From assembly GCF_002097715.1 (NCBI RefSeq), contig NZ_CP020738.1, positions 3,244,660 to 3,308,659 of the forward strand: DNA of 64,000 bases, given 5' to 3'. The notes below the pieces were generated by a model, which was not told the DNA's origin, searched no databases, and was given only the letters and a program-made list of their open reading frames with translations. Positions 44,206 through 62,953 of this stretch are shown piece by piece (position 1 is the stretch's first letter; each line of letters opens with the position of its first letter). This stretch comes from Burkholderia ubonensis subsp. mesacidophila. GTDB lineage: Bacteria; Pseudomonadota; Gammaproteobacteria; Burkholderiales; Burkholderiaceae. The position numbers were made by a program, and so were the translations under genes.

Positions 44206-44215
44206 CGGTCTCGCC

Positions 44216-44476
44216 TCAGAACGGGTTGCCAGTCACGATGGCGTACATTTTCCGCGTATCGATGATGCCGGTAAGCCAGTCCTGCGCGCGCCGGTTCGGC
44301 GCGCTGCTCCGCAGCTCTTCCAGCTCATCGCGGCTGGCGATGAACGGATCGAGCAGGTCGAACACGCGATGCCACTCGGTTCCCTCGACGCTTGAGAGCG
44401 GGTGGATGCCATCCATCGACTGCGATTCGTCGGCGATTTCGATTGCCGACGGGAGGGGTTTGAAGCCGTCTATCAT
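44216..44476 (-). CDS. Small protein between traM and traN
   Basis: An 86-residue acidic soluble protein starting MIDGFKPLPS, 8 bp after traM and 10 bp before traN. No family recognised. Tight spacing on both sides argues that it is real and co-expressed with the secretion core. Confidence 0.65.
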   Translation of the reverse strand: MIDGFKPLPSAIEIADESQSMDGIHPLSSVEGTEWHRVFDLLDPFIASRDELEELRSSAPNRRAQDWLTGIIDTRKMYAIVTGNPF

Positions 44477-44484
44477 GCCGTCAC

Positions 44485-47369: not shown

Positions 47370-48183
47370 GCGTGTCGCGGTCGCTTGCGCGTGTGTGGCC
47401 GGCTGCCTGATGGCGGGACACGTGCACGCGGAAATGTCGCTGGACGACCTCGCGAATCTCTCTGTCGACTCGATGCCCGCGGCCGCCGCGATATCGCCGG
47501 CGCGCGCGAACATGTTGAGCGAAGCGGCGCTGCCGCTCGGCAGTCACAGGGGGCTCGCCGATCGATCCGCCGTCCTCGTCGCCGAACTGGAGGCGCGCGC
47601 GTCGCGCCTGGATACGATCTACCGCTTCAATGCGCTCGTGATGACCAACGGTGTGCTGCCGCCCGTCATCTCGGAGGCGCGTGACGCGATCGAAGCGACG
47701 AACGATCAGATTCGCGTTGCCGATCGCATGTACAAGATCATCGCGCCCGCACGATTCATCACCATCGCGCCGTCATGGCGTGACTACCTGTTGGTCGGCT
47801 TGCGCATCAAACCTGTGCAGGAGCTGCCGTTTGCGGCGGTTCTGCCGAAGACCGGCGCCGAGCGCGCCTACTGGAAAGAACAAATCATGCTCGGATACGC
47901 GCAAGGGCAAAAGCTCGCCGATCAGATCCTGGAAACCAACCGCGCACGCCTCGATCGCGACTACATCGGCATGCTTCGCTACTCGGAGCTGCTCAACAAG
48001 GGCATGGTGTCCGAGCCGTCCGTCGCGGTCGCGCCCAGCATCGTGTCGGGCGACCGAAATCAGCTCAATGTCGGGGATACGCTTTATCGGGTCACCGATC
48101 ACGGCGGCTTCGTCACCGATCCCGGCAAGTGGCAGGCGACGGTCGGCCCGGCGACGGGCACCTCACGCGAGGGCGCGAAGTGA
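47359..48183 (+). CDS. dotC: DotC/TraI-family lipoprotein
   Basis: A 274-residue exported protein of the DotC family. GTG at 47359 is preferred since it begins a signal sequence with possible lipobox VAGC and overlaps the dotD end by 11 bp. ITIAPSWRDYLLVGL and WKEQIMLGYAQGQKLADQI are family-typical. Forms the outer-membrane subcomplex with DotD and DotH. Confidence 0.85.
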   Translation: MQFERVAVACACVAGCLMAGHVHAEMSLDDLANLSVDSMPAAAAISPARANMLSEAALPLGSHRGLADRSAVLVAELEARASRLDTIYRFNALVMTNGVLPPVISEARDAIEATNDQIRVADRMYKIIAPARFITIAPSWRDYLLVGLRIKPVQELPFAAVLPKTGAERAYWKEQIMLGYAQGQKLADQILETNRARLDRDYIGMLRYSELLNKGMVSEPSVAVAPSIVSGDRNQLNVGDTLYRVTDHGGFVTDPGKWQATVGPATGTSREGAK

Positions 48184-49295
48184 TGCTGCGGCCCGAGCCA
48201 TTCAACCTCCAGCCCAACTTCGGCGTGGACGCGCTGCAGTCGTTTCTGAACTATGCGGACACCAACGGGGCGTCCGACATCCTGTTTCAGACGGGTGACG
48301 TCGTATGGGGCGAAATCAAGGGGCGTCAGGTTCCGTTGACGCAGCGCACGATCAAGGACGGGGAAATCAAGACCCTCCTGTCGATCGCATTCGGTAGCGA
48401 GGTCATCGGCGTGATCAAGGGCGGAACCGATGCCGACCGCCCTTACCGCTTCGTGGTCGAGCGCGACTCGCGCCGCTACCGCGTCAACATTTCCGGCGCG
48501 CAGATCGGCGACACGGAGGATGGCCTGTCCATCACCATGCGAACCATTCCCGAGCTGCCGCCGCCCCTCGATGCGCTGAATCTTCCTTCGGGCATCCGGG
48601 AGAACCTGTTTCAGCCGCGCGGCCTCGTGCTCGTGTGCGGGCCGACCGGCTCCGGCAAGACGACGCTGATGTCGTCGTTCTATGCGGACACGTCGGAGAC
48701 GAACGGGGACGCGAAGATCCTGCTGTACGAGGATCCGATCGAGTTCCTGTTCACGAAAGTGAAGAACGCCGGGCCGAAGATTCGCCAGATGCAGATCGGC
48801 CGGCATATTCCGAACTTCGCCCGCGGCATTCGCAACGCCATGCGATGCAAGCCGATGCTGATCGGCATCGGCGAAGCGCGGGACGCGGAGACGATCGGGT
48901 CGCTGGTCGAGGCGTCGCTCACCGGCCACGGGGCATACGGCACGATGCACACCGAGAGCGTGCCGGAGACGATCAGTCGCGCCATTCAGGTGTTTCCGGC
49001 CGATCAGCATTCGGCGATCGCATCGAAGATGCTCGGCGCGCTGCGTCTCATCGTCGTGCAGATCCTTGTCCCGACACTCGACGGCAATCGTGCGGCTGTC
49101 CGCGAGTGGCTGTATTTCGATCGCGACGTCAAACGCGAGTTGAGCGAAATGCCCTACACCGCGTGGGGCGCCTACCTGCGCGGCGTGGTGGCGACGCACA
49201 AGCAGGACATGGCGACCGGACTGCGCGAATTGCTCGATCAGGGGCTCATCGACGCCAAGTCGTTTCGCAGGTATGCCGGGGAGTCGAACGCATGA
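48183..49295 (+). CDS. dotB: DotB/TraJ-family ATPase
   Basis: A 370-residue PilT-like ATPase that energises the type IVB system. P-loop CGPTGSGKTTLMSSF near residue 155; Asp box LLYEDPIEFLF; then a Walker B-type IGIGEARDAETI and SLTGHGAYGTMH. ATG at 48183 shares a base with the dotC stop (TGATG). Confidence 0.9.
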   Translation: MLRPEPFNLQPNFGVDALQSFLNYADTNGASDILFQTGDVVWGEIKGRQVPLTQRTIKDGEIKTLLSIAFGSEVIGVIKGGTDADRPYRFVVERDSRRYRVNISGAQIGDTEDGLSITMRTIPELPPPLDALNLPSGIRENLFQPRGLVLVCGPTGSGKTTLMSSFYADTSETNGDAKILLYEDPIEFLFTKVKNAGPKIRQMQIGRHIPNFARGIRNAMRCKPMLIGIGEARDAETIGSLVEASLTGHGAYGTMHTESVPETISRAIQVFPADQHSAIASKMLGALRLIVVQILVPTLDGNRAAVREWLYFDRDVKRELSEMPYTAWGAYLRGVVATHKQDMATGLRELLDQGLIDAKSFRRYAGESNA

Positions 49296-49561
49296 AGATG
49301 CGGCGGTCAATCTGGCGCGACGCCGCACTCGATCCTCGCATCGTAGGTATCGACGCCCGCGCGTACTTCCCGATCCTGATTGCGCTTTACTACCCCCGCA
49401 AGTGGACGTTCGGGGTAGCGGCGCTTGCCATCATCGGGTTCTTCATCATGGAAAAGCGGGGGTACACGTTGCCGGTGCTCCTGCGCGCAATTCGCCACAA
49501 ATTGCGCGGGGCGGTGGTCCATGCGCGCGCCTGGTGGCATCACCGGAGAAATCACGAATGA
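49292..49561 (+). CDS. icmT: IcmT/TraK-family protein
   Basis: An 89-residue protein with two hydrophobic segments (FPILIALYYPRKWTFGV, ALAIIGFFIMEKRGY). The N-terminal WRDAALDPRIVGIDARA is the IcmT signature. It overlaps dotB and the next gene by 4 bp each (ATGA), so translation is coupled from dotB through to the pilus genes. Confidence 0.85.
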   Translation: MKMRRSIWRDAALDPRIVGIDARAYFPILIALYYPRKWTFGVAALAIIGFFIMEKRGYTLPVLLRAIRHKLRGAVVHARAWWHHRRNHE

Positions 49562-50340
49562 AAAGGTGCGAAATGCACAAGACCACGATCTACGCCGCGT
49601 TGACGGCGATCGGGATCGGCATGGCGTCGATTCCGATCGCCCACGCCGGGTTCGTCAACGAGGCCGCGCCGCAGCAGGCTCAACTTGCCGCGGCCACCGA
49701 CAACACCCCGGATCTGACCGCGAGCTCGGCTGTCAGCCAGGAAGCACGCGCGAAGTGGATCCAGCGCGGCATGCGGCCGTCCGACGTGGCCGTGCCGCGC
49801 GGCAAAGGGCGCGACATTGCGCTTGCCGACATGGCGCCCGTCGTGGTGCCGCGCGATTTCCGCATCGACATGGGAACCGTGGACGGCAGCCAGCTCGTGT
49901 CATGGGCCGGCGGAAAACCGTGGGATGCGGTCCTGAAGGATGCCATCGACCCGATCCCCAACGTCGAAGCGACCCTCGACTGGAGCAAGCGTGTCGTCAC
50001 GTTCCGGCGAGCCGCGGCCGGCCGCAACGGCGTTTCCGGCATGGCGCCGGTGGCGGCTCCCGCGGTCGCGATGCGATGGCAGGTGCTCGCGAGCGACGTC
50101 ACGCTGCGCCAAACCCTCATTCGATGGGCGAAGGACGCCGGCTGGCAAGTGTCGTGGGAGATCGGCTACGACTATCCGGTTCAGCTCGAGGGGTCGTTCG
50201 CGGGCACGTTCGAGGAAGCGGTGGGGCAATACATGGCGTCGCTGCGCTACAGCGACTACCCCGCGCTCGCGTGCATGTACGAGGCGAATCACGTGGTGCG
50301 CGTGCTTCACTACGGGGACAAGAAAGAATGCGAAAAATGA
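49558..50340 (+). CDS. TcpQ-domain pilus assembly protein
   Basis: A 260-residue exported protein with a signal peptide ending AHA. The C-terminal domain (residues about 165-250, WQVLASDVTLRQTLIRWAKD and WEIGYDYPVQLEGSF) is TcpQ-like and should support the secretin. Two starts fit: 49558 with GGAGA, and 49573 with AAGG. It occupies the PilL/PilM place before pilN. The ATGA overlap joins the secretion and pilus gene sets into one transcription unit. Confidence 0.7.
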   Translation: MKRCEMHKTTIYAALTAIGIGMASIPIAHAGFVNEAAPQQAQLAAATDNTPDLTASSAVSQEARAKWIQRGMRPSDVAVPRGKGRDIALADMAPVVVPRDFRIDMGTVDGSQLVSWAGGKPWDAVLKDAIDPIPNVEATLDWSKRVVTFRRAAAGRNGVSGMAPVAAPAVAMRWQVLASDVTLRQTLIRWAKDAGWQVSWEIGYDYPVQLEGSFAGTFEEAVGQYMASLRYSDYPALACMYEANHVVRVLHYGDKKECEK

Positions 50341-52085
50341 AGAAAGGGTCGACCGCCATTGCGCTGTCGGCGCTTGCACTGAGCGCGTGCAACACGATGC
50401 AGCGTGACGTCGACCGCGGCTCGGATGCCGCGCGCGATCAGATCGGCAACTACAGCCGTATGACGACGATCCAGACGGCGTCGTCGAACGTTCGCGTCGT
50501 GCAACGCGTGACCGGCGCGTGGCTCGGCGGCCGGGCGGTGCCGATGACGTCGGACGCGACCTTGCCGGAGATCTTCAGGCGCAACGATTTCCAGTTCCAG
50601 TTCAAGGACGGTCCGGGGGACCTGATGCTGCTCGCGGAGCGGCTGACGAAGCTCACGGGGATTCCGGTGCGGGTGCAACCCGACGCATTGATGCCGCTGT
50701 CGGCGTTCATGGGCGATAAAGGCAGCAGCGGCGCGGGCGGCACGCCAGCCGCGGCGTCAGGCGCGCCGGCCGGCGCCGCGCTGCCGCCGCTGCCGAGCCC
50801 GGCGGCCGGCGGCGCCCTTGCGGCGGGTCTCTCGGCAACGACGTCCGGCGGTCGACCGGACGACACCAAATACGGCATGAACTACGTCGGGACGCTGCAA
50901 GGGTTCCTCGAGCTGACGTGCGCACACGGTGGACTCTCGTGGGACTACCACGATGGCGTCATCACGGTCCGGCGCTTCGTGACCAAGGTGCTTTCGCTGA
51001 AGGCGCTGCCCGGCTCGTCCGGCTTTGACGCGTCGCTCGGCCGCGACGGGCAGACGCAGACCGGCACGCAAAGCAGCGGCGGGACGCAGACCGCGCAGAA
51101 CACCGGCGGATACTCGTCGAACACGAAGATCAAGATGGATTCCACCTACAGCGTGTGGACCTCGGTCGAAGGCCAGATCAAGGCGGTCAAGACCCCGCCG
51201 GGACGCTACTGGATCTCGGAAGCGACGGGCACGATCACGGTGACGGATACCAAGGCCGCGGTCGACGAGATGTCGCGCATCATCGACCATGAAAACGCGC
51301 TGCTCACGCGCCAGATCGCCATGCGCGTCGAGGTGCTGTCCGTGAAGCTGACCGGCGGCCAGCAGTACGGAATCGACTGGAGCGTCGTTTTCAACAAAGT
51401 CACGAACATGGTGCCCTGGGCGCTCACCTTCTCGTCGCCGCAATCGCTGGTTGCGTCGGCCGCGGGCAGCCTGGGCGTGTCCGTGCTCGCACCGACGAAC
51501 GGCGGCACGGCGTCGACATGGTCCGGATCGCAGGCCATGTTCAATGCCCTTCAGGAATACGGCCGGGTGAAGGTCGTGACGACGGCCAACGCGATGACGG
51601 TGAACCGTCAGCCGGTGCCGGTGGCCATCACGCAGCAGACCGGCTACCTGGCGCAGATTTCCCCCGCGCCGGCCGGCGCGAGCGGCAATACCGGCGGTAC
51701 GCCCGGCCTGTTGCCCGGAACGGTGACCACCGGCTTCATGCTGAACCTGCTGCCGACGATTCTCGACAGCAACAGCATCCTGCTGCAGTTTTCCATGGGG
51801 ATCTCGACGCTCGATCGCCTCGACAAGCAGTCCTCGGGTTCCGGCAACAACATCCAGAGCATCCAGACGCCGACGATATCGAGCACCGATTTCCTGCAGA
51901 AGGTTGCGTTGCGCCCCGGCGATACGCTGGTGCTGTCCGGCTACGAGCGCGAGCAAGGGCAATACGACAAGCGGACGCTGGCGGACGGCGCGCCGGTCGG
52001 CTTCGGTGGTTCGTTCAACGGCTCGACCGCGCGCGAGGCTGTCGTCATTCTGGTGACGCCCGTCGTGACCGAAGGCGCAATCTGA
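50337..52085 (+). CDS. pilN: PilN-family type IVb pilus secretin
   Basis: A 582-residue outer-membrane lipoprotein secretin (lipobox LSAC, Cys18). An Ala/Gly-rich linker lies near residues 125-175. The C-terminal secretin core includes VKVVTTANAMTVNRQPVPVA and PGDTLVLSGYEREQG. It forms the pore for the thin pilus. Confidence 0.85.
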   Translation: MKKGSTAIALSALALSACNTMQRDVDRGSDAARDQIGNYSRMTTIQTASSNVRVVQRVTGAWLGGRAVPMTSDATLPEIFRRNDFQFQFKDGPGDLMLLAERLTKLTGIPVRVQPDALMPLSAFMGDKGSSGAGGTPAAASGAPAGAALPPLPSPAAGGALAAGLSATTSGGRPDDTKYGMNYVGTLQGFLELTCAHGGLSWDYHDGVITVRRFVTKVLSLKALPGSSGFDASLGRDGQTQTGTQSSGGTQTAQNTGGYSSNTKIKMDSTYSVWTSVEGQIKAVKTPPGRYWISEATGTITVTDTKAAVDEMSRIIDHENALLTRQIAMRVEVLSVKLTGGQQYGIDWSVVFNKVTNMVPWALTFSSPQSLVASAAGSLGVSVLAPTNGGTASTWSGSQAMFNALQEYGRVKVVTTANAMTVNRQPVPVAITQQTGYLAQISPAPAGASGNTGGTPGLLPGTVTTGFMLNLLPTILDSNSILLQFSMGISTLDRLDKQSSGSGNNIQSIQTPTISSTDFLQKVALRPGDTLVLSGYEREQGQYDKRTLADGAPVGFGGSFNGSTAREAVVILVTPVVTEGAI

Positions 52086-52098
52086 GGCCGGGGGAAAT

Positions 52099-53349
52099 AT
52101 GTCGGCTTCAATCGTAGCCGTCGACGGCCAGCACGTCGTGTTCGGGCTGGACTGGGTCCCGCTGGCGGGCGATACGTCCGAGAAAAAGGAGGTGCGCACG
52201 CTCGTCGCGGATCTGGATGCGGCGTTCGAGGTCCGCTACGCCAACGAGCACGCGATCATGTTCGGCTTTCTTGCCGACAACGATGTGCCGGACGGGCTTT
52301 CGAAGGCGGCGAAATCGAAGCTGCTTTCCGCGTCCGTCCTGTTGGCGACCTTCCCGCAGATCACGTCGAACGCGATCTGGATCGAGGTGGACGGGCAAAC
52401 CGCGCGCATGGCCGTTCTCAAGGACGGCTTGCCGTTGCCGTCCGGCGACTTCTGCGGCGACATCGCGGACGCGGAAGACCGGATCCGGCAGATCGAGGCG
52501 GATAGCGGCGTGTCGTTCACGTATTACGGCAACTTCGCGTCGGTGTACGGCGGCAGCATTCCCATCACGCTCGACGAGCTCGTGCGGGAAGCCAACGCCA
52601 CGACCGCGACGCTGAAGCGCGCGAGCAAGGGCGTCAATCTCAAGCAGATCGGCCTGCTCGTGCTGCTGGTCGGGATTGGCGCTTATCTCGTTCTTCCCGA
52701 CATGATGAAGCCGCGCAAGCCCGTCGCACCCAAGCAAGAGGACCCGAACGTCACGTATCAGCGAACGATCGGCGAAAGGCTGGCGGCCGAGGGAGCGCCG
52801 GTGAGCGCGGCGATGCCGGCGCTGCTCGGCGACTGGAACATCGAGATCCTTCAAGGCGGGTGGGTGCTGTCGAAGGTCCTGTGCCAGGTGTCGTCGTGCG
52901 TCTATACGTGGGAGGTCGTCGGCGGGAACTTTCAATCGCTCGTGGCGGCGCTTGGCCGCAAGCCCTACAACTTCGCGCTGGACGGAAAGACGGCGTCATA
53001 CGAAGTGCCGAATCCGGCCGTCAGGGAAACACGCGTCGACCAGCGTTCGCTGTCGTCCTTCGACGACTTCAAGTTCCGGGAAGGCGCACTGAGGCAGGAT
53101 CTCGCGCTCGTGGGCGCGACGCTGTCGTTCGACGAGCCGTCGGTGTTCGGCGCGGACCCGAGGCTGAATCTCTCGGCGCTGCACGACGTCGTGCGTTCCG
53201 GTGCGGTTCACGGCATCGGTCCCGCGGCGCTCCTCCAGAACATCCTGTCCAGATTGCCCGACTCGATCGTGATCGATCGCGTCGAAGTCGCCACGAACGG
53301 GGGCGACCCGAAGTTTTCGTTTGAGGGGAAATACTATGTCAGGAACTAA
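52099..53349 (+). CDS. pilO: PilO-family type IVb pilus protein
   Basis: A 416-residue bitopic protein. A cytoplasmic domain of about 190 residues, a membrane segment (QIGLLVLLVGIGAYLVL) and a periplasmic domain of about 200 residues match PilO2 of R64. It links the cytoplasmic motor to the periplasmic alignment complex. Confidence 0.8.
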   Translation: MSASIVAVDGQHVVFGLDWVPLAGDTSEKKEVRTLVADLDAAFEVRYANEHAIMFGFLADNDVPDGLSKAAKSKLLSASVLLATFPQITSNAIWIEVDGQTARMAVLKDGLPLPSGDFCGDIADAEDRIRQIEADSGVSFTYYGNFASVYGGSIPITLDELVREANATTATLKRASKGVNLKQIGLLVLLVGIGAYLVLPDMMKPRKPVAPKQEDPNVTYQRTIGERLAAEGAPVSAAMPALLGDWNIEILQGGWVLSKVLCQVSSCVYTWEVVGGNFQSLVAALGRKPYNFALDGKTASYEVPNPAVRETRVDQRSLSSFDDFKFREGALRQDLALVGATLSFDEPSVFGADPRLNLSALHDVVRSGAVHGIGPAALLQNILSRLPDSIVIDRVEVATNGGDPKFSFEGKYYVRN

Positions 53350-53899
53350 GGCCATCGCGCTCGCGCTCGCCCTCGCCTCCTTGAGCCACGCGGCAGCCGC
53401 GGACACGCTTTCGTCGCTCGTGGACAAGCAGCGTCAGGTCATGGGCCGCGAGCTCGACAAGAAGCTTCAGGACGATGGCCCGGGTTCGAAGACCGCGCCG
53501 CCGCCGCCACCTGCGGCAGCCGCGCCGGCCCCTGCCAGCGTCGCGACGGAAGCATCCGCGAAGAAGGCGCCGCATTCGGTCGCGGACGACCTCAGGGTGA
53601 ATGCGATCTACGGCGTCAACGGCGTCACGACCGTCGACGTCTCGATCGGCGACGGTCCCTCCTATCCGATTACGAAGGACAGGTCGATCAAGGGTTGGTC
53701 GATCGCCAAGGTGTCGCCGTCGTCGGTCACGTTCGTCAATGCGAAGACGCGCGCGCGCAAGACCATCTACCTGGCGGAGCCGACGGCCGCGCCTGCGCCC
53801 GCGCCCGCCGCGCAGGCGCCCGCTTCGTCCTTCGGCTTTTCGCCATCGATGCCCATGCAGATGGGCGTGCCGCCGCTCCCGAGAACGAGCGCTCAGTAA
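53336..53899 (+). CDS. pilP: PilP-family pilus protein
   Basis: A 187-residue exported protein with a signal peptide (ALASLSHAAAA). A Pro/Ala-rich linker precedes a small beta domain (VNAIYGVNGVTTVDVSIGDG, KGWSIAKVSPSSVTF) typical of type IV pilus PilP. Starts 14 bp inside pilO. Confidence 0.8.
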   Translation: MSGTKAIALALALASLSHAAAADTLSSLVDKQRQVMGRELDKKLQDDGPGSKTAPPPPPAAAAPAPASVATEASAKKAPHSVADDLRVNAIYGVNGVTTVDVSIGDGPSYPITKDRSIKGWSIAKVSPSSVTFVNAKTRARKTIYLAEPTAAPAPAPAAQAPASSFGFSPSMPMQMGVPPLPRTSAQ

Positions 53900-53920
53900 C
53901 CTGCCCTAGGAACGGGAATC

Positions 53921-55669
53921 ATGGCAACGTCGTATCTCGGAAAGTGGATTGGACGCTTCGTCGAAAGCTCCCATGGTGCTCAGACGCAGAAGCCGGTCGC
54001 GCGTCCTGCGACGTCCAAGCCGGCGTCGGGGCGCGGGCACGCTCAAGCACCGCACAAGCCGCTGCCGAGCTTGCCGACCGTGACGTCGGTTGCCGAGCTT
54101 CCGTCGATCCAGCACATTTACACGGCCGCCAAGGCCGAGTTCGAGATTCCGGATTCGCTGAAGCTGGCGCTCGTTGCGACGGGGCATGAAGGCGGCACGG
54201 CAAGCATGCTCGTCGATCCTGCCGCCTTCCGGCAAGCGTCGATCCACGTCGACAGCCTGCGCGAGCGTCTGCGGAAGTCACAGATACGCGTCACGAAGCT
54301 GGCGTTCGCGGATCGCGACCTGATTGCCGCGATCTACAAGACCGAGCGACGCGGCGAGTCGATCGAGGATGCCGCGCCGAGCGTATCGGAAGAAAGCCGC
54401 CTGTTCGAAACGTTCATCCGATACGGCATCGACAACCATGCGACGGACATTCACGTCGTCGTGAAGGGGCAGCATGGTGTCGTGAAGTTTCGAATCGACG
54501 GCATCATGGAGGTGATGCGGGGGCCGACCAACGGCATCTATACGCGCGAACAGGTCGTCGGCGCGTTCGGCTACGCGTACAACAAGCTCATCGGCGACCG
54601 GACCGGCTCGCATTCCTCGTTCACGAGCGACGACTTCCAGTCCGGGATGATTCCGTATCGTGTCGGCGACCGGGCGATGAACCTGCGCTGGCAATCGGCG
54701 CGAGGATTCGAGGGGTTCACGGTCTACATCCGGTATCTGCTGAAGGACAAGACGTTCAAGGCGGAGCGGTTTCAGGACTTCGGCTACGAGGACGACCAGG
54801 CCGAGATGTTCACCCGCGTCGGGCGCACGCGCAAGGGGATGATCCTCATTTGCGGCGAGACGAACTCGGGCAAATCCACCGCGCTCACCCACTACATCGA
54901 GACGCTGCCGGACCGCGACCTGCTCAACATCATCATGGTCGAGGATCCCGTGGAAAAGGAAGTGGCGGGAACATCGCTGCAAATTTCGCTGCAGCGCACG
55001 CTGTCGGTCGATTCCGAGAAGACGCCGTTCACCGAGGTGCAGGGCGTGCTGATGCGAAGCGATCCCTGCATCATCGCGCAGGGGGAAATTCGGGACCTCG
55101 ATTCCGGAACATGCGCCAAGACGCTCCTGGAATCGGGCCACCAGGTGCTTGCCACGACGCACGCCCCCGGCATCATGGACGTGTTCGTTCGGCTGACCAG
55201 CAGCGAAATCGGCTTCTCGATGGAATCCCTGACGCGTCCGCGCTTCTGGTCGCTGGTCGCCTGTCAGGCGCTGGTCCCGAAGCTTTGCTGGTGTTCGCAC
55301 GATCAGTACGCGGATGAAACGATTCCGCACATCACGGAGTTCATCCGCGCTCGCTTCGATATCGACACGTCCAGGATGCGCACGAAACGCGACGGCGGAT
55401 GCGACTCGTGCGGCGGGCGCGGCACGAAGGGGCAAACCGTGGTGGCGGAGATCTATCAGCCGACGCGCACCTTCCTGCAGGAATTGCGCGACGGGCACGA
55501 CTTCGAGGCCGAGCGAATCTGGCGCTCCGATAGCGACAAGCGCTTCGACTCGCCGAACATGCGCGGGAAGACGATGTTCGAGCACGCGCTTTACAAGGCC
55601 TATATCGGGCTTATCGATCCGAGACAGGTCGAGACGTTCGACCTTTTCGACCAGTACGAGATCGTTTGA
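53921..55669 (+). CDS. pilQ: PilQ-family pilus assembly ATPase
   Basis: A 582-residue GspE-type ATPase, the assembly motor of R64-type pili. P-loop ICGETNSGKSTALTHY is near residue 315; Asp box MVEDPVEKE; Walker B-like AQGEIRDLDSGT. A C-terminal Cys pair (GCDSCGGRGTKG) resembles the zinc motif region of GspE. Length fits assembly ATPases rather than the shorter retraction type. Confidence 0.85.
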   Translation: MATSYLGKWIGRFVESSHGAQTQKPVARPATSKPASGRGHAQAPHKPLPSLPTVTSVAELPSIQHIYTAAKAEFEIPDSLKLALVATGHEGGTASMLVDPAAFRQASIHVDSLRERLRKSQIRVTKLAFADRDLIAAIYKTERRGESIEDAAPSVSEESRLFETFIRYGIDNHATDIHVVVKGQHGVVKFRIDGIMEVMRGPTNGIYTREQVVGAFGYAYNKLIGDRTGSHSSFTSDDFQSGMIPYRVGDRAMNLRWQSARGFEGFTVYIRYLLKDKTFKAERFQDFGYEDDQAEMFTRVGRTRKGMILICGETNSGKSTALTHYIETLPDRDLLNIIMVEDPVEKEVAGTSLQISLQRTLSVDSEKTPFTEVQGVLMRSDPCIIAQGEIRDLDSGTCAKTLLESGHQVLATTHAPGIMDVFVRLTSSEIGFSMESLTRPRFWSLVACQALVPKLCWCSHDQYADETIPHITEFIRARFDIDTSRMRTKRDGGCDSCGGRGTKGQTVVAEIYQPTRTFLQELRDGHDFEAERIWRSDSDKRFDSPNMRGKTMFEHALYKAYIGLIDPRQVETFDLFDQYEIV

Positions 55670-55678
55670 GAGGCATGG

Positions 55679-56805
55679 ATGGGAGCAGAACTCAGCAGAT
55701 TGAAGGCGGCGGCGTCCGATACCCTGGGACGCCTGAGCGAGAAGAACGCGATTCGGCGATTCCGCAGCACGCGGGAAGACTTCTATGTCGACCTCGCCGA
55801 AGCGATCAAGGACAAGGAGCCGGTGGCAAAGTTTCTTTCCATCCGCCGCACGCGCGCCATCGAACAGAAGGATGCGTTTGCGCGGCTGTACCAGATTTTC
55901 TAGACCGTCTCGAGCAGAAGGGGGGTTCCCTTTCGCACATGCTGAGCGACGTGGTGCCCGACGGCGACCTGATGGTGATCGCGTCCGTCGAGCAGCGCGG
56001 TGACGTCCACGAAGGCCTGCTCTTCCTGGCCCAGACCATCAAGAGTCAGCGCGCGATGGCGGGCGAGATGGCGGCGGCGCTGGCTGTGCCGGTGCTCGTG
56101 ACCGCCGTGTGCGTCGGCTTCATCATCATGCTGTCGTTCTTCGTGATCCCGGTGTACGAGTCGATCGTGCCGCCGTCGAAGTGGAACGCGATGGGGAGGT
56201 CGATCTACATGGTCTCGTATGTGACGCGGCATTACGGGCTGCTCATCGTCGCGGGGTTCGTTGCCGCGATGTGGTGGTTCGTCTGGTCGATTCCAAACTG
56301 GCGCGGCCGTCGGCGCGTCAAGTTCGACGACTACATTCCCTATCGCGTCTTTCGCGACTATCACGGGGCCATCTTCATGGTCGCGCTCGCGTCGCTCATG
56401 GTTTCCGGCGAAACGCTGGTGCGGTCCCTTGAAAAGCTGAAGCGCCGTGGCAAGCCCTGGCTGCGATGGCACATCAACGCGATTCTCGGCCGACTGCTGA
56501 CGAAGAGTCGAAATTATGGCGAAGCTTTCGCGACGGGCATCTTCAGCCAGCAATTGTCGAATCGGCTGATCGATCAGGCTCGCCGCAGTTCGGATTTCAA
56601 CGAAGTCATCAGGAAGATGGGGATCGAGGGGATCGAGAAGACCAAGGAGGAGGTTCGCAAGTCCGCGAAGCGCCTCAACCTTGCGTTGATCTTCGTGCTT
56701 GGCGGGGTGGTCGCGTATTTGCTGATGGGGACGCTCTATACCGCCCAAGGCCTGAGCGCCGGCATCCGCGAAACGGTTCGTCACCACAACGTTTCGAAGC
56801 ATTAG
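55679..56805 (+). pseudogene. pilR: PilR-family inner-membrane platform, frameshifted
   Basis: Frame 1 starts at 55679 and reads MGAELSRLKAAASDTL to ...AFARLYQIF, then stops at 55901-55903. A frame shifted by one base continues FLDRLEQKGGSLSHM to 56805, with the GspF-type membrane segments (VLVTAVCVGFIIMLSFFVIP, HYGLLIVAGFVAAMWW). One more T in the run at 55896-55899 would restore a normal 375-residue PilR. Either a sequence error, a slippage or phase switch, or true inactivation. The neighbours pilQ and pilS are intact. Confidence 0.75.
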
Positions 56806-56850
56806 CCGAGCGGGGCCGGCAACGTCGCGCGCATCGTCGCGCATCTAATG

Positions 56851-56870
56851 CGTATAATTGTATTGATACG
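56851..56870 (+). promoter_or_regulatory. Element palindrome before pilS
   Basis: CGTATAATTGTATTGATACG, both arms perfect, containing TATAAT, 33 bp before the pilS start. It suggests a separate, regulated promoter for the major pilin, pilT-like and pilV genes. Confidence 0.7.
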
Positions 56871-56903
56871 CAAAAACCACTCACTACTGCTATGGGGGAA
56901 ATC

Positions 56904-57449
56904 ATGATCACAATGTCGAAACGTCTGCGTCAGCAAAGGGGCTATTCGTTGGTGGAGTTGTCGATCGTCGTGGCGATCATCGCCCTGCTGATCTACGGGG
57001 TCGTGAAACTGGTCAACGGCATTCTCGCGGACCACCGGGCAAATGCCGAGCTGTCGGAAATGCCCACGATCATCACAAAGATCCAGAAGATCTACGCGAA
57101 CCGTCCGAACTTCTCCGGCGCGACGCAAGCGATCCTGGTGAACAACAACGCATTCCCGGCCGATTGGGTCGTCACCGGCAGCACCAACCTCGTGAACCGC
57201 TGGAGCGGGACGGTCACGCTCGCGGTTGCAACGATCGGGGCGATTTCGAACAACGCCATCACGCTCACGACGACCGGCGTGCCGGACTCCGAATGCAAAT
57301 CGATCGTGCCCGGCATGGACGACTCGGTCCGGACGACGGCGGTGAACGGCACGGTGGTCAAGCAAGATGGCAAGCCGAGCGACCCCGCACTGACGGGTAC
57401 GTCCTGCGCCAACGGGACCAACACGATCATCTATACGTTCAGCAAGTGA
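56904..57449 (+). CDS. pilS: PilS type IVb major prepilin
   Basis: A 181-residue prepilin. A 13-residue basic leader ends in Gly and is followed by YSLVELSIVVAIIALLIYGV, with Glu at +5, the prepilin peptidase signature. A C-terminal Cys pair (SECKS and GTSCANG) can form the usual disulfide. ATG at 56904 follows GGGGGAA; 56892 and 56913 are alternatives. Confidence 0.85.
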   Translation: MITMSKRLRQQRGYSLVELSIVVAIIALLIYGVVKLVNGILADHRANAELSEMPTIITKIQKIYANRPNFSGATQAILVNNNAFPADWVVTGSTNLVNRWSGTVTLAVATIGAISNNAITLTTTGVPDSECKSIVPGMDDSVRTTAVNGTVVKQDGKPSDPALTGTSCANGTNTIIYTFSK

Positions 57450-57461
57450 CGGGGTGCGAAC

Positions 57462-58472
57462 ATGGACGCGCTAGAGATAGATGACATGCTGCTCCTGGAG
57501 GCGGCGACGTATTCCGACTGGCACGTGGATATCGCGCGTCCTGAAACGTCGGTGGTGTTTCGGGAAGTGAACGAAGCAGGTGACGCGCTGGCGGAGGCGA
57601 AGCCGTCGCGCGTGCCGGCGTCGATGATGCCGGTGCTTCACCTGATGCTCAAATGGCTGCGGGCGCACCGCGACGCAGGCAATCAGCATTCGTTTGCCAT
57701 GAACGTCGGCAACCTGCGGTTTCGGGGCGAAGTGATCCGCGCCGATCGCTATGCCCTTCGCCGGACGCGCCAGGAGGTCGAGACCCTTGAATCCCTGAAA
57801 CTCGGGCGGGCCGCGGAAGAGCTGCTGCTGGATCCGGAGTTTCGGTCGGGTGGCCTGATGCTCGTGACGGGCGATACCGGTGCGGGCAAATCGACCACCA
57901 TTCGCTCGGCGGTCAAGGCGCGTCTCGAAAAGTACGGCGGGTACGCGCTCGCGGTGGAATCGCCGATCGAGGTTGAATTCGAAGGCTTTCACGGGGACGG
58001 CTATCTCGAGCAGGTCGACGCGACCAACATGGGGTACCGGTACGAAGTCGAGACGGCCATGCGCAAGTTCCCCGCCGCGACGCGCAGCATGTTCATGTTC
58101 GGCGAGGTGCTTGGGCAAGACGCGGCGGCCGAGCTGGTGCGCCTTTCGCCGAGAGGGCATTTCGTGATGACGACGATTCACGGCGAGTCGCCGGAGGCGG
58201 CCATCAAGATGCTCATCACGCTGGCGGAGCGCGGCGGTGAATCGTATGCACGCCAGCTGCTCGGGACGTCGCTGCGAGGGGTGCTTCATCAGCGCCTCGT
58301 GCGCGGCAAGCCGGTCGTGCAGTGCTTCAAGGTCAGCGACATGATCCGCAACGTCATCGGAAACTCGGATGCGCCGCTCTCCAATCTGACGAACGCCATC
58401 GACCAGGCCCGTCGCGAACTCGCATCGCAGGCGCTCCGCGGCGCGCCGTCCCAGCCGCGCATGCACTTGTAA
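57462..58472 (+). CDS. Second PilT/GspE-family ATPase
   Basis: A 336-residue ATPase: P-loop VTGDTGAGKSTTIRS near residue 140, Asp box AVESPIEVEFEG, Walker B-like MFMFGEVLGQD, then VMTTIHGESPEAA. Its size fits retraction-type motors. In R64 the genes between pilS and pilV encode a lytic transglycosylase and the prepilin peptidase; neither is here. A pilus retraction role is inferred, not shown. Confidence 0.75.
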   Translation: MDALEIDDMLLLEAATYSDWHVDIARPETSVVFREVNEAGDALAEAKPSRVPASMMPVLHLMLKWLRAHRDAGNQHSFAMNVGNLRFRGEVIRADRYALRRTRQEVETLESLKLGRAAEELLLDPEFRSGGLMLVTGDTGAGKSTTIRSAVKARLEKYGGYALAVESPIEVEFEGFHGDGYLEQVDATNMGYRYEVETAMRKFPAATRSMFMFGEVLGQDAAAELVRLSPRGHFVMTTIHGESPEAAIKMLITLAERGGESYARQLLGTSLRGVLHQRLVRGKPVVQCFKVSDMIRNVIGNSDAPLSNLTNAIDQARRELASQALRGAPSQPRMHL

Positions 58473-58481
58473 AGGCGGCTT

Positions 58482-59846
58482 ATGGCACTCCACATTCGGC
58501 GAATGCTGATCGGCTCGCGCACCCGCCAGCGAGGGATGTACGACCTGCTGTCGATCGGCATCGGCGCGACTATCGCGATCGCGGGAGCGACTGTCGGTCT
58601 CTGGCAGAAACGGCAGGACATGCTGGCGGAGCAGATGGCCGCGCAGGGCGACATCGTCCGGGATATCGGCAACAGCATCAACGGCCAGTATCTGTCGAAA
58701 TACTATTCCAATCTCGTGAACGGCACGGGGGTTCCGGGTGTGGCGAATGCTTATGCGCCGACGATGGCGGAGCTGCAGGCCATCAACGTGCTGCCGGCCG
58801 GCCTCGCGACGACGAGCGCCTACGGCACGCCGTATGTCGTCTCGCTCGCGAAAATCCCTGCCGCCTGCGTCGCGCCGAACTGCGATGTCGGAGGCGTGGT
58901 GTATATCGCCGGCGCCATCACCGATCCGTCGACGGGGAACCCCATGCCGCTCGGCGATGGGGCCGGGTCGATCGGCGGAGATGGCGGGTATTCGGACCTC
59001 GCGTCGCCCGGCACGATCACGGGCATGAACGGCGGCTGGTCGCTGGCGAATCCGATGGGGGGCGTCGCCGGCGTCCTGGCGATGCGTGTCGGGTACGGCT
59101 CGAGCGGTTGGTCGGCATATGTGCGTCGTGACGGCTCGCTGCCGATGGAAGGGGATCTCAACTTCCTGGGTACGACGGGTGCGCGGCACAACATTGCGAA
59201 TGCGCAGACGGTGAATGCGCAGCAGTTGGTCACGCCTGCCGGCAACGGTGTGCAAATCGGTGGATCGCTGCTCTACGGAGACGGGAGCAATTCGGCAATT
59301 CGGCAGAACGGCGCGCTGTACGTTCAAAACGCGGCGGGCAACGCGGCGGCGGATATCAATGTCGGCAATGCGAATGCGTCGGGTAGCGTGAACGCGTCGG
59401 GTAACGTGAATGCGGCCGGCAACGCGAATGCATCGCTGGATCTCGTCGCCGGACGGAACGTGTGGGCCTCCAACGGCGCAGTGACGGCATCGTGGCTGCA
59501 TTCGACAGGAAGCGTGCAGATTGACAGCAGTGCGCAGGTCAACGGCTCGGCGAACGTCAACGGCACGATTTCGTCGGGAAGCCGGCTGTATTCGAACGAA
59601 TACGTGCAGGTCAATGGCTGGGCAGCGCAGGGCGCAAGCTGCTCTCCCAACGGGTTGATCGCCAACTCCGGTAGCGGCCCACTGTTTTGCCAATCCGGTG
59701 TGTGGACAGCGGCGGGCGGCGGTCAAGCGTGGCGGTGCATTCAGCACGATTCGTATTGGGCGTCAGGCATCATGCAGGACCACTACTTCAGCATTTTCAA
59801 CTCTCCACGGACGTGTCGTCCGGTTCATCGGGTAATGGGCGAGTGA
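58482..59846 (+). CDS. pilV: PilV minor pilin/adhesin with shufflon-encoded end
   Basis: A 454-residue tip adhesin. The prepilin-like start has cleavage RQRG before MYDLLSIGIGATIAIAGA. The constant region runs to about residue 402, and the C terminus switches at CQSGVW inside sfx1. A repetitive Asn/Ala/Gly stretch (NVGNANASGSVNASGNVNAA) precedes the end. The current C-terminal cassette stops at 59846, but one added base near 59817 would give TCPSGSSGNGRVTVCRWS, stopping at 59866, closer to the pattern of other cassettes. The present end is probably a frameshifted one. Confidence 0.85.
   Translation: MALHIRRMLIGSRTRQRGMYDLLSIGIGATIAIAGATVGLWQKRQDMLAEQMAAQGDIVRDIGNSINGQYLSKYYSNLVNGTGVPGVANAYAPTMAELQAINVLPAGLATTSAYGTPYVVSLAKIPAACVAPNCDVGGVVYIAGAITDPSTGNPMPLGDGAGSIGGDGGYSDLASPGTITGMNGGWSLANPMGGVAGVLAMRVGYGSSGWSAYVRRDGSLPMEGDLNFLGTTGARHNIANAQTVNAQQLVTPAGNGVQIGGSLLYGDGSNSAIRQNGALYVQNAAGNAAADINVGNANASGSVNASGNVNAAGNANASLDLVAGRNVWASNGAVTASWLHSTGSVQIDSSAQVNGSANVNGTISSGSRLYSNEYVQVNGWAAQGASCSPNGLIANSGSGPLFCQSGVWTAAGGGQAWRCIQHDSYWASGIMQDHYFSIFNSPRTCRPVHRVMGE
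59687..59705 (+). repeat. sfx repeat 1
   Basis: TTGCCAATCCGGTGTGTGG, inside pilV at the constant-variable border, encoding CQSGVW. Matches the R64-type core TGCCAATCCGGT-N3-TGG (recalled from the literature). Confidence 0.9.
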
Positions 59847-59879: not shown

Positions 59880-59898
59880 CTGCCAATCCGGTGTTTGG
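59880..59898 (+). repeat. sfx repeat 2
   Basis: CTGCCAATCCGGTGTTTGG, same direction as repeat 1, differing from the other copies in the N3 spacer (GTT) and first base. Confidence 0.9.
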
Positions 59899-60126
59899 GT
59901 GCCACCAGGCGGATTCACCCGATGGTACAACATGGGGCCGTACTACAACACGAATTGGACGAACGTTGGGCTGGGTTGGTTCAAGTTCTGCTGGGCTTTT
60001 GGTGTCAACGGTCCCAACAACAACTCCGGCGTTGTCCCACTCGCCCAAAACGGTGTCGAATGGTACTGGGGCGTCGAAAACAATTCGCCAGATTCATCTG
60101 GCATTCAAGTTTCCTGCATGGACTGA
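59881..60126 (+). CDS. Silent pilV C-terminal cassette 2
   Basis: From the sfx codons an 80-residue frame runs CQSGVWVPPGGFTRWYNMG to GIQVSCMD and a stop at 60126, rich in Trp, Asn and Gly. It has no start of its own; it would be expressed only when Rci joins it to pilV. It appears intact. Confidence 0.75.
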   Translation, partial: CQSGVWVPPGGFTRWYNMGPYYNTNWTNVGLGWFKFCWAFGVNGPNNNSGVVPLAQNGVEWYWGVENNSPDSSGIQVSCMD

Positions 60127-60201
60127 GAGGTCCGAGGTACGTATGCCTTACCGCTGTCGCCAGCGTACAATTCCGCACTCAGATTGCTTGAGGGGACTAC
60201 C

Positions 60202-60897
60202 TTGTTGATCACCGACCTTATTCGGAAAGTTGTACCGCGGCGAATGCTGGTGACTGCTCGACTGCAGAAGATATTCTTCGGCGAGCACGGCCACACGCGG
60301 CGAATTGACGGCATGCCTATAGATGGCAATGGGAATTTCCAGCCGTGGCTTACGTATCCTCTTATTGAGTACCTCAACGGTCTAGATTTCGCTGAGAAAG
60401 ACGTTTTCGAGTTCGGGGCAGGTGCATCAACCATGTTTTGGGCAGCTCGTGCCCGCAAAGTCGTAAGCGTTGAGTTCGATGCAGGGTGGTACGAGTCCTT
60501 GAAGGGACGTGTGCCAGAAAATGTGACCCTTTTTCACGAGGCCGACGGCCATCGATACTCGCAAACCCCCAAAATATTGGCGCCGCGTCGATTTGACGTT
60601 GTTGTCGTCGACGGCGCCGAACGGTATCGGTCGGCACGTACTGCGATCGACATCATTGCTCCCGGTGGAATGATCATTTTGGACAACGCCGAATGGTATC
60701 CACGCACCGCAGACTTGCTGGCCGACGCTGGATTTATCGAGATTCGATTCAGTGGGTTCTCGCCCATCAACGCATTCGCATCCACCTCGAGCGTCTTTCT
60801 CAGCCGGGACTTTTCTTTTCCGCGCGCATGCGCTGCGCGGACTCCCCCGCGCGGCGGCAAAGCGCTGCCTAACGGGGCACTCGACGACGGAAATTGA
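60202..60897 (+). CDS. SAM-dependent methyltransferase inside the shufflon
   Basis: A 231-residue class I methyltransferase. Motif I FEFGAGASTMFW, acidic loop VVSVEFDAGW, motif IV RFDVVVVDGAER and IIAPGGMIILDNAEWYP. It lacks NPPY-type motifs, so it is not an adenine DNA methylase by inspection; a sugar, lipid or protein substrate is more likely. TTG at 60202 is chosen because GAGGGGA lies 5 bases upstream. The DNA is more A/T-rich than its flanks until the last 25 codons, suggesting a recent insert with an altered 3' end. Confidence 0.75.
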   Translation: MLITDLIRKVVPRRMLVTARLQKIFFGEHGHTRRIDGMPIDGNGNFQPWLTYPLIEYLNGLDFAEKDVFEFGAGASTMFWAARARKVVSVEFDAGWYESLKGRVPENVTLFHEADGHRYSQTPKILAPRRFDVVVVDGAERYRSARTAIDIIAPGGMIILDNAEWYPRTADLLADAGFIEIRFSGFSPINAFASTSSVFLSRDFSFPRACAARTPPRGGKALPNGALDDGN

Positions 60898-60902
60898 AGC
60901 GT

Positions 60903-60928
60903 GCTCGGGGCTTTTGATGGTCCCGAGC
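60903..60928 (+). terminator. Hairpin after the shufflon methyltransferase
   Basis: GCTCGGG pairs with CCCGAGC over a 12-nt loop just past the stop codon. There is no U-run; function is inferred from position. Confidence 0.35.
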
Positions 60929-60933
60929 GTAGT

Positions 60934-60952
60934 TTGCCAATCCGGTGTGTGG
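60934..60952 (+). repeat. sfx repeat 3
   Basis: TTGCCAATCCGGTGTGTGG, identical to repeat 1 and in the same direction. Left border of the invertible end segment. Confidence 0.9.
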
Positions 60953-61400
60953 AAATCCCCCGGGAATTTCCTTGGTCAATACGTTGTGCGCTTCTATAAC
61001 GGAAGCAATCTCGTCCCGACGGAACGGGTGTCAGCCCAATCCGTACACCGGATCATGCAGTTGTCCCACAGCCGCACGGGATTACGGATACATGACCGGC
61101 CAGTCCTATTACCGCGAAGCATGGGACGGGGCTGGTGTCCGTTTGTTGGCGCCGTACACGATTCCGCCAGCGCGCTGGGATGGACAGCGAATCGTTACCG
61201 CCCACACCGAAACCAGCCCCGTCCCAGGTGGCGTAGTGGTAGTCATGCCGACCATTTCGCTGGTGTACCCCGGCGGGCATGTGCAGGAACCAGTTGCAGG
61301 ATTCCCTTTCCAGCACCAGTTCGGATGCCCCAGCCTCCGGATTGTTGACCCACTGCACCTCGAAAGTACCGCCAAACTTCAACGCCGATGAGCCCGTTTG

Positions 61401-61419
61401 CCACACACCGGATTGGCAA
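61401..61419 (-). repeat. sfx repeat 4 (inverted)
   Basis: Reverse complement of repeats 1 and 3. It is the only copy in the opposite direction and thus the obligatory partner for inversion in the present arrangement. Confidence 0.9.
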
Positions 61420-61516: not shown

Positions 61517-62668
61517 TTACAGCGGATCGATCAGCACTGCGTGGCCATTCTCTTCGTATTCGAACAGCGGCGTCGGAGTGGGTGGTTTCCTGGAGTCGCG
61601 GACCATGCTGACCAGTTCGCGCAGCAGCACATCCCGGGCTCGGGCTGCGACTTCATCCGCGTCCGTGCCCTCGAGCCGGAGGTGCGCAAAGTCCATGAAC
61701 TGCAACGTCACGCGTTGCTCGTCCCTTTCGATCATGGCCGGATACGGCACGATGGCTTGCGAGATGACACGCTTGCCGCGGTGAAGCATCTTCCTCCCGT
61801 CCAGCTTGGCGACCATGTTGGACGCTTTCAGGTGCGTGTACCGCTTCAGCATCTGCATCGACTTGTGGCCGCTGATGGTCGCGATCTCCATCATGTCGAG
61901 CGTACCGAGCTCAAACAGTCGCGACACTGCCTCGTGTCGAAGGTCATGGAAATGCAAGTCATCGATTTCAAGACGCTGAACAAGCGTTCTCCAGGCGCTC
62001 TTGAAACCGTCGGACGTGTATTTGAAAATGCGGCCCTCCGGTTTCGTTCCGAGGCGCGTCAGCACATCCATGGCTCTCATCGAAAGCGGCACGTCGCGTT
62101 TCGATCCATTCTTGGTCAGCGGCAAATGGGCGATTCGCGTGCGCAAGTTGATGTTTTCCCATTGGAGATTGAGCAACTCGCCTTGCCGCATCGCGGTCTC
62201 GATCGCCAGCACGATCAATGCATGGATTTCGATGTTCCGATGCGCGGCGGCAGCACGAAGCAGTCGACGTTCTTCACCGAAGCTGACCCGCCGGTCCCGT
62301 CCGGGCGGGAGCTTGGGCTTGCGCACGCGCGATACGGGATTGTCCTTGCAGATGCCCCACTCGATGATGGCAATGTTGAACAAGTCCCTGAGCAACGCCA
62401 GTTCGAGTCGCACCGTGTTGGGTGCGATGGGGCGGTTCGTGTTGCGGGAGGGCGACGAGAGGCGAATATCCCGGTAATTCGCGATATCCACCGTCGTCAA
62501 TTCGGAAAGCACCTTCTCCCCGACGAAGCTCTTTGCAATCGTCGACGCGCGATACATTTCCTGCTTGTATCCCCGCTTCTCGATGGAGACGCTCTTTGTG
62601 TATTGGGCCAGCGCATCGCGTACGGTAATCGACGGAGAAGGCTTGAAGATGAGGCGACTTTCAATCAA
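61517..62668 (-). CDS. rci: Shufflon-specific tyrosine recombinase Rci
   Basis: A 383-residue tyrosine recombinase, about the length of R64 Rci. Catalytic residues visible: Arg161 (ETAMRQGE), His241 and Arg244 (HDLRHEA), His268 (SGHKS) and Tyr277 (LKRYTHL). The long C-terminal extension beyond Tyr277 is characteristic of Rci. The start is TTG at 62668, 24 bp after the XRE gene, with a weak ribosome site, which may keep expression low. It catalyses inversion at sfx sites. Confidence 0.9.
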   Translation of the reverse strand: MIESRLIFKPSPSITVRDALAQYTKSVSIEKRGYKQEMYRASTIAKSFVGEKVLSELTTVDIANYRDIRLSSPSRNTNRPIAPNTVRLELALLRDLFNIAIIEWGICKDNPVSRVRKPKLPPGRDRRVSFGEERRLLRAAAAHRNIEIHALIVLAIETAMRQGELLNLQWENINLRTRIAHLPLTKNGSKRDVPLSMRAMDVLTRLGTKPEGRIFKYTSDGFKSAWRTLVQRLEIDDLHFHDLRHEAVSRLFELGTLDMMEIATISGHKSMQMLKRYTHLKASNMVAKLDGRKMLHRGKRVISQAIVPYPAMIERDEQRVTLQFMDFAHLRLEGTDADEVAARARDVLLRELVSMVRDSRKPPTPTPLFEYEENGHAVLIDPL

Positions 62669-62692: not shown

Positions 62693-62953
62693 TTATTCAT
62701 GGGAGGCTTGTGCCTGGTGATTTGCCTCGAGAGTCAGTTCGACTGGGGCAATCAAATCGACCAATGGAACATCCAGGCTCCGCGCCAGTGCGAGCAAGGT
62801 GTCGAGAGTCGGGGAGCGAAGCCCGCGTTCAAGCAGCGAAATGTAGGTGCGGTCCAGATCCGTCGCCTTCGCGAGGGCGTACTGAGACAGGCCGCGGTCG
62901 TTGCGCAGCTTGCGCAGCGTCGCGGCAAATGCAATGTTGGCTTGGCTTTTCAA
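62693..62953 (-). CDS. XRE-family regulator upstream of rci
   Basis: An 86-residue repressor-like protein: helix-turn-helix at residues about 20-60 (LSQYALAKATDLDRTYISLL) and a short tail. It directly precedes rci on the same strand and probably shares its transcript. Two operator-like palindromes lie just upstream. Confidence 0.8.
   Translation of the reverse strand: MKSQANIAFAATLRKLRNDRGLSQYALAKATDLDRTYISLLERGLRSPTLDTLLALARSLDVPLVDLIAPVELTLEANHQAQASHE

Follow-up and report, generated by a model that had tools for sequence, protein, structure and literature searches.

The window, i.e., the whole stretch of 64,000 nucleotides analyzed here, comes from Burkholderia ubonensis subsp. mesacidophila and is the terminal part of contig C2 (3,308,659 bp) in a genome of 7.84 Mb assembled in four contigs. 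It contains an ordinary, working R64-type Rci shufflon, located beside I-type transfer genes on this 3.3-Mb replicon, in which sfx sites divide the 3′ end of pilV into segments A, B and C, and in which segment B carries a methyltransferase (MTase) gene in addition to a pilus tip cassette. The shufflon is genuine, and its enzyme content is of a kind that we did not find described and that recurs, with at least three enzyme types. The features of the locus are as follows.

58482..59687, plus strand: constant region of PilV, the tip adhesin gene up to sfx1 (Pfam Shufflon_N match at residues 281-406)
59688..59700, plus strand: sfx1 core, between the constant region and segment A (exact 13-mer; 17 of the 18 fixed positions of the IncI2 repeat)
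59688..59846, plus strand: tip cassette of segment A, short, 52 amino acids (from the translation; once in the genome)
59881..59893, plus strand: sfx2 core, between A and B (exact 13-mer; 15 of 18)
59881..60126, plus strand: tip cassette of segment B, in frame, CQSGVWVPPGG...VSCMD, 81 amino acids (from the translation)
60166..60171, plus strand: TACAAT, candidate -10 element of the MTase gene's own promoter (similar at the related loci L051, L058 and L059)
60190..60195, plus strand: GAGGGG, probable ribosome-binding site, 7-12 nt upstream of the TTG
60202..60897, plus strand: class I S-adenosylmethionine (SAM) methyltransferase, 231 amino acids, TTG start (from homologues, a structural model and purifying selection)
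60935..60947, plus strand: sfx3 core, between B and C (exact 13-mer; 17 of 18)
60935..61418, no strand assigned: segment C, two opposed tip cassettes (from the translation; the sequence looks like a mixed-orientation consensus)
61406..61418, minus strand: sfx4 core, between C and rci, inverted (exact 13-mer; 16 of 18)
61517..62668, minus strand: Rci-type tyrosine recombinase (shufflon invertase), 383 amino acids (PF00589, 5e-26, residues 132-282)

The sfx core, the 13-mer TGCCAATCCGGTG, occurs in the window as four exact copies, at 59688(+), 59881(+), 60935(+) and 61406-61418(-), and was compared with the IncI2 repeat consensus given in PMC5430464. All four sites open in frame with CQSGVW, tip A being short and tip C garbled. 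Scanning the window with up to two mismatches returned five matches, the fifth at position 4370 with two mismatches; shuffled sequences gave a mean of 2.12, and 2 of 100 reached five. Across the genome, the exact 13-mer is present seven times, always within two copies of the window shufflon, and a reversed 13-mer used as a control does not occur. Segment A is 193 bp long; a derivation of it by scrambling of C or B was rejected, with local scores of 16-22. The recombinase continues for about 100 residues beyond the PF00589 domain at its C-terminus, a length suggesting the C-terminal extension of Rci, and is 68-70% identical to plasmid recombinases of Paraburkholderia and Burkholderia; it matches proteins in 2,491 plasmid records, of which 1,905 are from Escherichia or Salmonella. 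A Burkholderia invertase, SI-B. ubonensis, has been described to shuffle a reporter in Escherichia coli, with a mean of 74% (PMC11852207). A second Rci-like gene of the genome (contig C1, 47% identity) was rejected as another such shufflon, since it lacks an sfx cluster: 20 kb scanned on both strands with up to two mismatches gave one sfx-like site, with one mismatch. Like the R64/IncI shufflon, the window combines an Rci-type recombinase, asymmetric sfx sites, in-frame alternative pilV C-termini and observed rearrangement; unlike it, one segment also bears a complete enzyme gene, the segments of R64, ColIb-P9 and R721 being described as holding two partial pilV open reading frames or one (PMC5430464).

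An earlier note on this DNA, made from the sequence alone, had described the sfx2-sfx3 segment as holding a full SAM-dependent MTase with its own TTG start and ribosome-binding site, and this is what we find in segment B, which spans 1,054 bp between the exact sfx sites at 59881 and 60935. However, the enzyme does not occupy the segment alone: a pilV tip cassette takes up the first 246 bp, and the MTase gene starts 75 bp behind it. The possibility that this open reading frame is a chance remnant was not borne out. A protein search with the window MTase returned 71 proteins, its own entry included, the others being up to 86% identical, and the reading frame appears complete, because 46 of these 71 proteins are 225-236 amino acids long. 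Compared with a homologue on a phage or prophage contig (L051, the closest locus read), nonsynonymous differences per site (pN) are 0.11 and synonymous differences (pS) 0.72; in the other four loci of this comparison, synonymous sites are saturated. The AlphaFold model (mean predicted local distance difference test score 95.0, predicted template modelling score 0.90) has a class I methyltransferase fold with the conserved SAM motif, and the best viral structural match is A0A6J7X2Y8 (template modelling scores 0.79/0.77); PHROGs holds no family for this protein. The MTase is a real, intact gene under purifying selection. Its G+C content (0.557) and that of tip B (0.538), set beside the constant part of pilV (0.644) and the window (0.642), fit acquisition by transfer.

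Both orientations of segment B are present in this one assembly. Positions 43003-64000 of the window (about 21 kb) recur in the same orientation at the other end of the contig (C2:1-20786), and outside the shufflon the two copies differ by no mismatches and six gaps over 16,685 + 2,582 bp (19,267 bp). Most simply, the repeat would be a single locus of a circular replicon, present twice because the ends were left uncollapsed; alternatively, it may be a true terminal duplication. An uncollapsed 21-kb overlap of contig ends is an assembly flaw that has here preserved two shufflon states. The order at the contig start is constant region, C, inverted B, rci, and segment B there matches the window copy exactly between its cores while running the other way. 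Its sfx junctions are hybrids in which the outer arm of sfx4 meets the inner arm of sfx2, the result that recombination at the core would give. The copies of segment B agree at 1,070 of 1,071 bp, and the single difference lies outside the core, in the exchanged left sfx arm. Segment C differs strongly between the two copies and partly resembles both orientations, and we read it as a probable consensus of mixed molecules. Segment A, which occurs once in the genome, is missing from the contig-start copy; loss during assembly is as likely as deletion, and is plausible because PacBio assemblies of IncI2 shufflons have been described to drop a segment (PMC5430464). The garbling of C in both copies, the loss of A from one and the mishandling of shufflons by assemblers described in the same source would all be expected if the inverted copy were an assembly artefact rather than an inversion in cells, but each junction is a precise hybrid at the sfx core, segment B is preserved save for the one difference in an exchanged arm, and enteric segments are likewise found in both orientations in records labelled complete, which makes an artefact extremely unlikely. 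We are highly confident that the inversion of segment B is real at the DNA level.

The sites bounding segment B, sfx2 and sfx3, are direct repeats, and from the state in the window B can consequently flip solely with C, and possibly A, through sfx4, the route that the earlier note had named. Simulation of the shufflon, with inversion permitted between opposed sites only, gave 12 states, the MTase gene being sense to the pil operon in six and antisense in six. In the four states that display tip B, it is always sense, 75 bp behind pilV; in the four that display tips C and C′, it is always antisense; and in the four that display tip A, it is sense in two and antisense in two. The proposal that the enzyme could switch together with the tip stands at the DNA level, both orientations having been seen, whereas the switch in expression is a prediction. 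In the inverted state that was seen, rci and the MTase gene share a strand, with the MTase gene 419 bp downstream, so that read-through from rci is possible and the inverted gene need not be silent. In addition, TACAAT or TAAAAT ends 30 nt before the MTase start in the window, 29 nt in L051, 35 nt in L059 and 41 nt in L058 (where the start is an estimate), i.e., in four of the six loci compared, and no such element is found in L052 or L088. These elements, the lack of any isolating terminator that stands out and the homologues in two phage or prophage contigs favor a serotype-converting cargo with a constant promoter of its own, the glycan being always modified and the place in the shufflon incidental. 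However, no clear -35 was seen upstream of the candidate -10, and 10-37% of the shuffles of a locus contain a comparable hexamer match by chance; moreover, sugar-modifying enzymes occur in four shufflon groups, each enzyme directed as a tip and placed behind it. Constant expression of this kind is, in our view, unlikely. A promoter and terminator scan gave one promoter-like and two terminator-like sites, not above shuffles, and is uninformative for switching. Whether expression of the MTase depends on orientation is, on this sequence evidence, an evenly balanced question.

As to what the enzyme may modify, a family-profile search at the level of the order found 10 of 399 genomes with a match at E<=1e-30, our own included, and we opened eight of the other nine. 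Apart from Wzt, the names given to neighboring genes (Wzx, Gmd, Fcl, Ugd and others) are readings of translations. Of these eight loci, three clearly lie in an O-antigen or exopolysaccharide context (L088, L089 and L091) and three more probably do (L092, L093 and L094), while the surroundings of L090 and L095 were ambiguous. In L088 (60% identical to the window MTase), the gene adjoins a Wzt-type ABC ATPase (NF050108, 3.9e-80, below the model cut-off), with ManC- and UDP-sugar-dehydrogenase-like genes also nearby; in L089 (37%) and L091 (36%), it lies within Wzx-, FkbM- and AsnB-like genes, L089 having Gmd-, Fcl- and Ugd-like genes as well; and in the remaining three, it is near glycosyltransferase- or aminotransferase-like genes. 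The methyltransferases of L088, L089 and L091 are homologous to that of the window but fixed in biosynthetic clusters. A tblastn search of 50,697 phage records gave no match; two IMG/VR contigs carry the MTase at 81% and 60% identity, with two further matches there at 27-29%. The homologues at L051:5992-6687 and L052:5992-6690 lie behind tail genes in phage or prophage contigs, that of L052 immediately after genes for a tail fibre and for tail fibre assembly and followed by a DNA methyltransferase, and are possible lysogenic conversion genes. In Foldseek and VIA-align comparisons, no sugar methyltransferase stood out among the structural matches. A role as a DNA or RNA methyltransferase was rejected: the Erm match scores 17.3 bits against a cut-off of 212, and the neighborhoods point to sugars. 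The target is therefore probably a surface sugar, as judged from these gene contexts. The earlier note had named the pilus, its glycan or the cell surface, and the last of these is likely given the contexts of the homologues. Modification of the pilus, of PilV or of its glycan is suggested by the position of the gene in the pil operon, but where the context of other homologues was read, it was a polysaccharide-type cluster or a phage contig, not a pilus locus, and we consider such modification very improbable.

The earlier note had also suggested searching related shufflons for genes other than pilV, and this search found enzymes in L058, L072 and L105. Matches to the MTase, our own included, are present in 2 of 65 genomes of the genus (the second weak) and in 5 of 398 genomes of the family, two of these being weak (E 3e-10 and 1.5e-4); at E<=1e-60, 9 of the 398 have a match to Rci, again including our own. 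The shufflon of a Paraburkholderia fungorum-like genome (G398, L058) has ten sfx sites and a 3.17-kb segment with a B-like tip, an MTase (77% identical to that of the window) and an AT3-SGNH acyltransferase (PF01757, 1.4e-35; PF19040, 1.8e-37), and at the start of the L058 contig the B-like tip is joined to the rci side, i.e., a second junction of the MTase segment. In a second genome (G113, L059), PilV has a B-like tip with an MTase (63%) 64 bp behind it, on a 7-kb contig with no sfx site within one mismatch. We read the tips before the MTase in L058 and L059 as being of the same type as B. Another Burkholderiaceae shufflon (G076, L072) has a segment with an AT3-SGNH gene, which follows a tip at about 320 bp and is 72% identical to that of L058. 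Another segment of L072 holds a lytic transglycosylase (SLT) open reading frame (L072:5716-6474) between an inverted sfx pair, and this may be a pilus or transfer accessory gene that is also switched. Among plasmid records, the MTase has four weak matches, none above 55% identity, and the tip of segment B alone matched none. Around the AT3 relatives on Caballeronia and Pandoraea replicons, no sfx site turned up with up to one mismatch allowed; the AT3-type acyltransferase at L097:7022-8989, on the Pandoraea apista plasmid pPA35, has an A24 prepilin-peptidase-like gene as its neighbor.

The third enzyme type occurs in enteric plasmids. In Citrobacter tructae (NZ_CP038468, L105), a 1.2-kb segment carries an annotated sugar O-acetyltransferase with hexapeptide repeats, 54 bp behind pilV. 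This segment matches 76 of 72,556 plasmid records, 17 of them over at least 80%, the query's record included, and the carriers are plasmids of Citrobacter, Enterobacter, Salmonella and Klebsiella. Of nine loci read, the O-acetyltransferase is sense to pilV in five (L105, L112, L113, L115 and L116) and antisense in four (L109, L110, L111 and L114), and the segment is 100% identical in six loci, three in each orientation. The enzyme-bearing segment thus exists both ways round in natural plasmids. Like the window, these shufflons have an enzyme gene behind a tip cassette in an invertible segment; they differ in that the enzyme is a hexapeptide acetyltransferase rather than a methyltransferase, and they are annotated in records with no describing paper found. 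Some enteric tips resemble phage tail-fibre or collar domains (L104:6590-6952, L105:7522-7890 and L116:4759-5127), that of L116 being annotated as "tail fiber protein". The earlier note knew of no described shufflon with enzyme cargo; this holds for the papers searched, although enzyme genes of this kind are already present in annotated plasmid records. We found no description of a non-pilV enzyme gene in a PilV shufflon in the literature consulted, to which subscription journals and preprints do not belong, and the available text of PMC11868660, PMC2647930 and PMC5903667 contains nothing on enzyme cargo in shufflons.

Our sfx scan covered 51 loci, a biased sample, of which 17 have clusters of at least three sites and 13 were kept; four were set aside with sites that straddle rci or lie away from pilV (L055, L056, L071 and L106), L056 and L106 having two-site shufflons without cargo. 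Three of the 13 contain enzyme cargo (L058, L072 and L105), and one (L073) is cut by a contig end. The shufflon of Pseudomonas koreensis (L100), described in PMC6158609, contains no enzyme cargo. In four shufflon groups (the window, G398, G076 and the enteric plasmids), the cargo is directed as a tip and lies behind it. The distance between the two is 54 bp for L105, 75 bp for the window, about 70 bp for L058 and about 320 bp for L072. Shufflons might simply tolerate inserted genes by chance, their segments having non-coding room and the cargo no link to the tip or pilus; the many shufflons without cargo and the SLT gene of L072, which is not a sugar-transfer enzyme, would be in keeping with this. 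However, the enzymes carried belong to three unrelated families and yet converge on the chemistry of sugars, purifying selection acts on the MTase, and tip and MTase are kept together in G113 with no visible shufflon on its short contig, and we regard chance capture as improbable.

On balance, we lean towards these shufflon segments linking a glycan-binding pilus tip to a glycan-modifying enzyme. Segment B would couple a cassette for a PilV tip with the gene for a polysaccharide methyltransferase. The enzyme would methylate a sugar in the O-antigen or exopolysaccharide of its own cell, so that cells with tip B on display would alter that tip's receptor on themselves, which may amount to self-avoidance or surface exclusion. 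What would make the link to the tip relevant is the binding of PilV tips to lipopolysaccharide (LPS), described as their receptor in PMC10654706. Carriers of PAPI-1 have been described to have less common polysaccharide antigen (CPA) LPS, which is the receptor, weaker PilV2 binding, and exclusion (PMC5297154), and AT3-SGNH proteins to acylate O-antigen, among other glycans (PMC9558356). On the strength of these findings and of the gene contexts given above, we prefer a module of receptor-binding tip and receptor-editing enzyme. PAPI-1 resembles our proposal in that a type IVb PilV2 tip binds LPS and carriers with altered LPS exclude a second copy; it differs in that carriers have a reduced amount of one LPS form, and the available text of PMC5297154 mentions no shufflon and identifies no genetic cause. 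Phage serotype conversion and phase-variable O-acetylation by OafB likewise rely on AT3(-SGNH) acyltransferases to alter O-antigen (PMC9558356), but there the enzyme is neither tied physically to an adhesin nor switched by the adhesin's recombinase. Exclusion or self-avoidance is a possible but rather doubtful function. More generally, we tentatively suggest that some segments are adhesin-plus-receptor-editor modules, in which the invertase would set the reading of both tip and enzyme so that the coat follows the tip, recurring with methyltransferases, AT3-SGNH acyltransferases and hexapeptide acetyltransferases in beta- and gammaproteobacteria.

Several results weigh against this proposal. 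The -10-like element suggests that the MTase has its own promoter, at odds with a pure ON/OFF switch. Pairing of tip and enzyme is not strict, since G398 contains a second tip of B type without an enzyme and the acyltransferase of G076 follows a different tip type, and 10 of the 13 kept shufflons have no enzyme cargo. The window MTase also narrowly misses Methyltransf_24 (PF13578; 23.5 bits against a cut-off of 26.3), as does its relative in L058 (23.0), that of L059 passing with 28.6, and among solved structures we found none that gives its substrate.

For type IVb conjugative pili, the restriction of self-mating is, to our knowledge, still to be explained, and so is the selection that acts on the tip variants of shufflons. 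An invertible module of a tip and an enzyme that edits its likely receptor offers a direct hypothesis. If it is true, conjugative elements would phase-vary the surface chemistry of their hosts, affecting phage sensitivity and serotype, and subpopulations would recognize coats unlike their own, whereas cells carrying an identical module would be avoided or excluded. The 100% identical enteric segments found in both orientations are a natural test set.

Around the shufflon, the window contains the following neighboring features.

43255..45177, minus strand: I-type (Dot/Icm-like) transfer genes DotH/IcmK and DotI/IcmL (PF12293, 3e-62; PF11393, 6e-28)
48129..58472, plus strand: type IVb pilus operon, with three T2SSE-type ATPases, a secretin and a PilR/GspF-like protein
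62693..62953, minus strand: XRE/HTH_3 regulator adjoining rci (PF01381, 1.9e-16)

The pil operon also includes a pilin-like open reading frame, with a pilin-like N-terminus as read from its translation, and one at 52099-53349 without a Pfam match, and continues on the plus strand into PilV (58482-59846). The Shufflon_N match of this PilV (9e-5, 22.5 bits) is below the gathering score of 27.5, and the PilV proteins at the equivalent place in L058 and L059 exceed that score. Related-looking, outer-membrane-like proteins are encoded near pilV and the MTase in G113 (L059:2364-3113) and near rci in G398 (L074:2781-3449).
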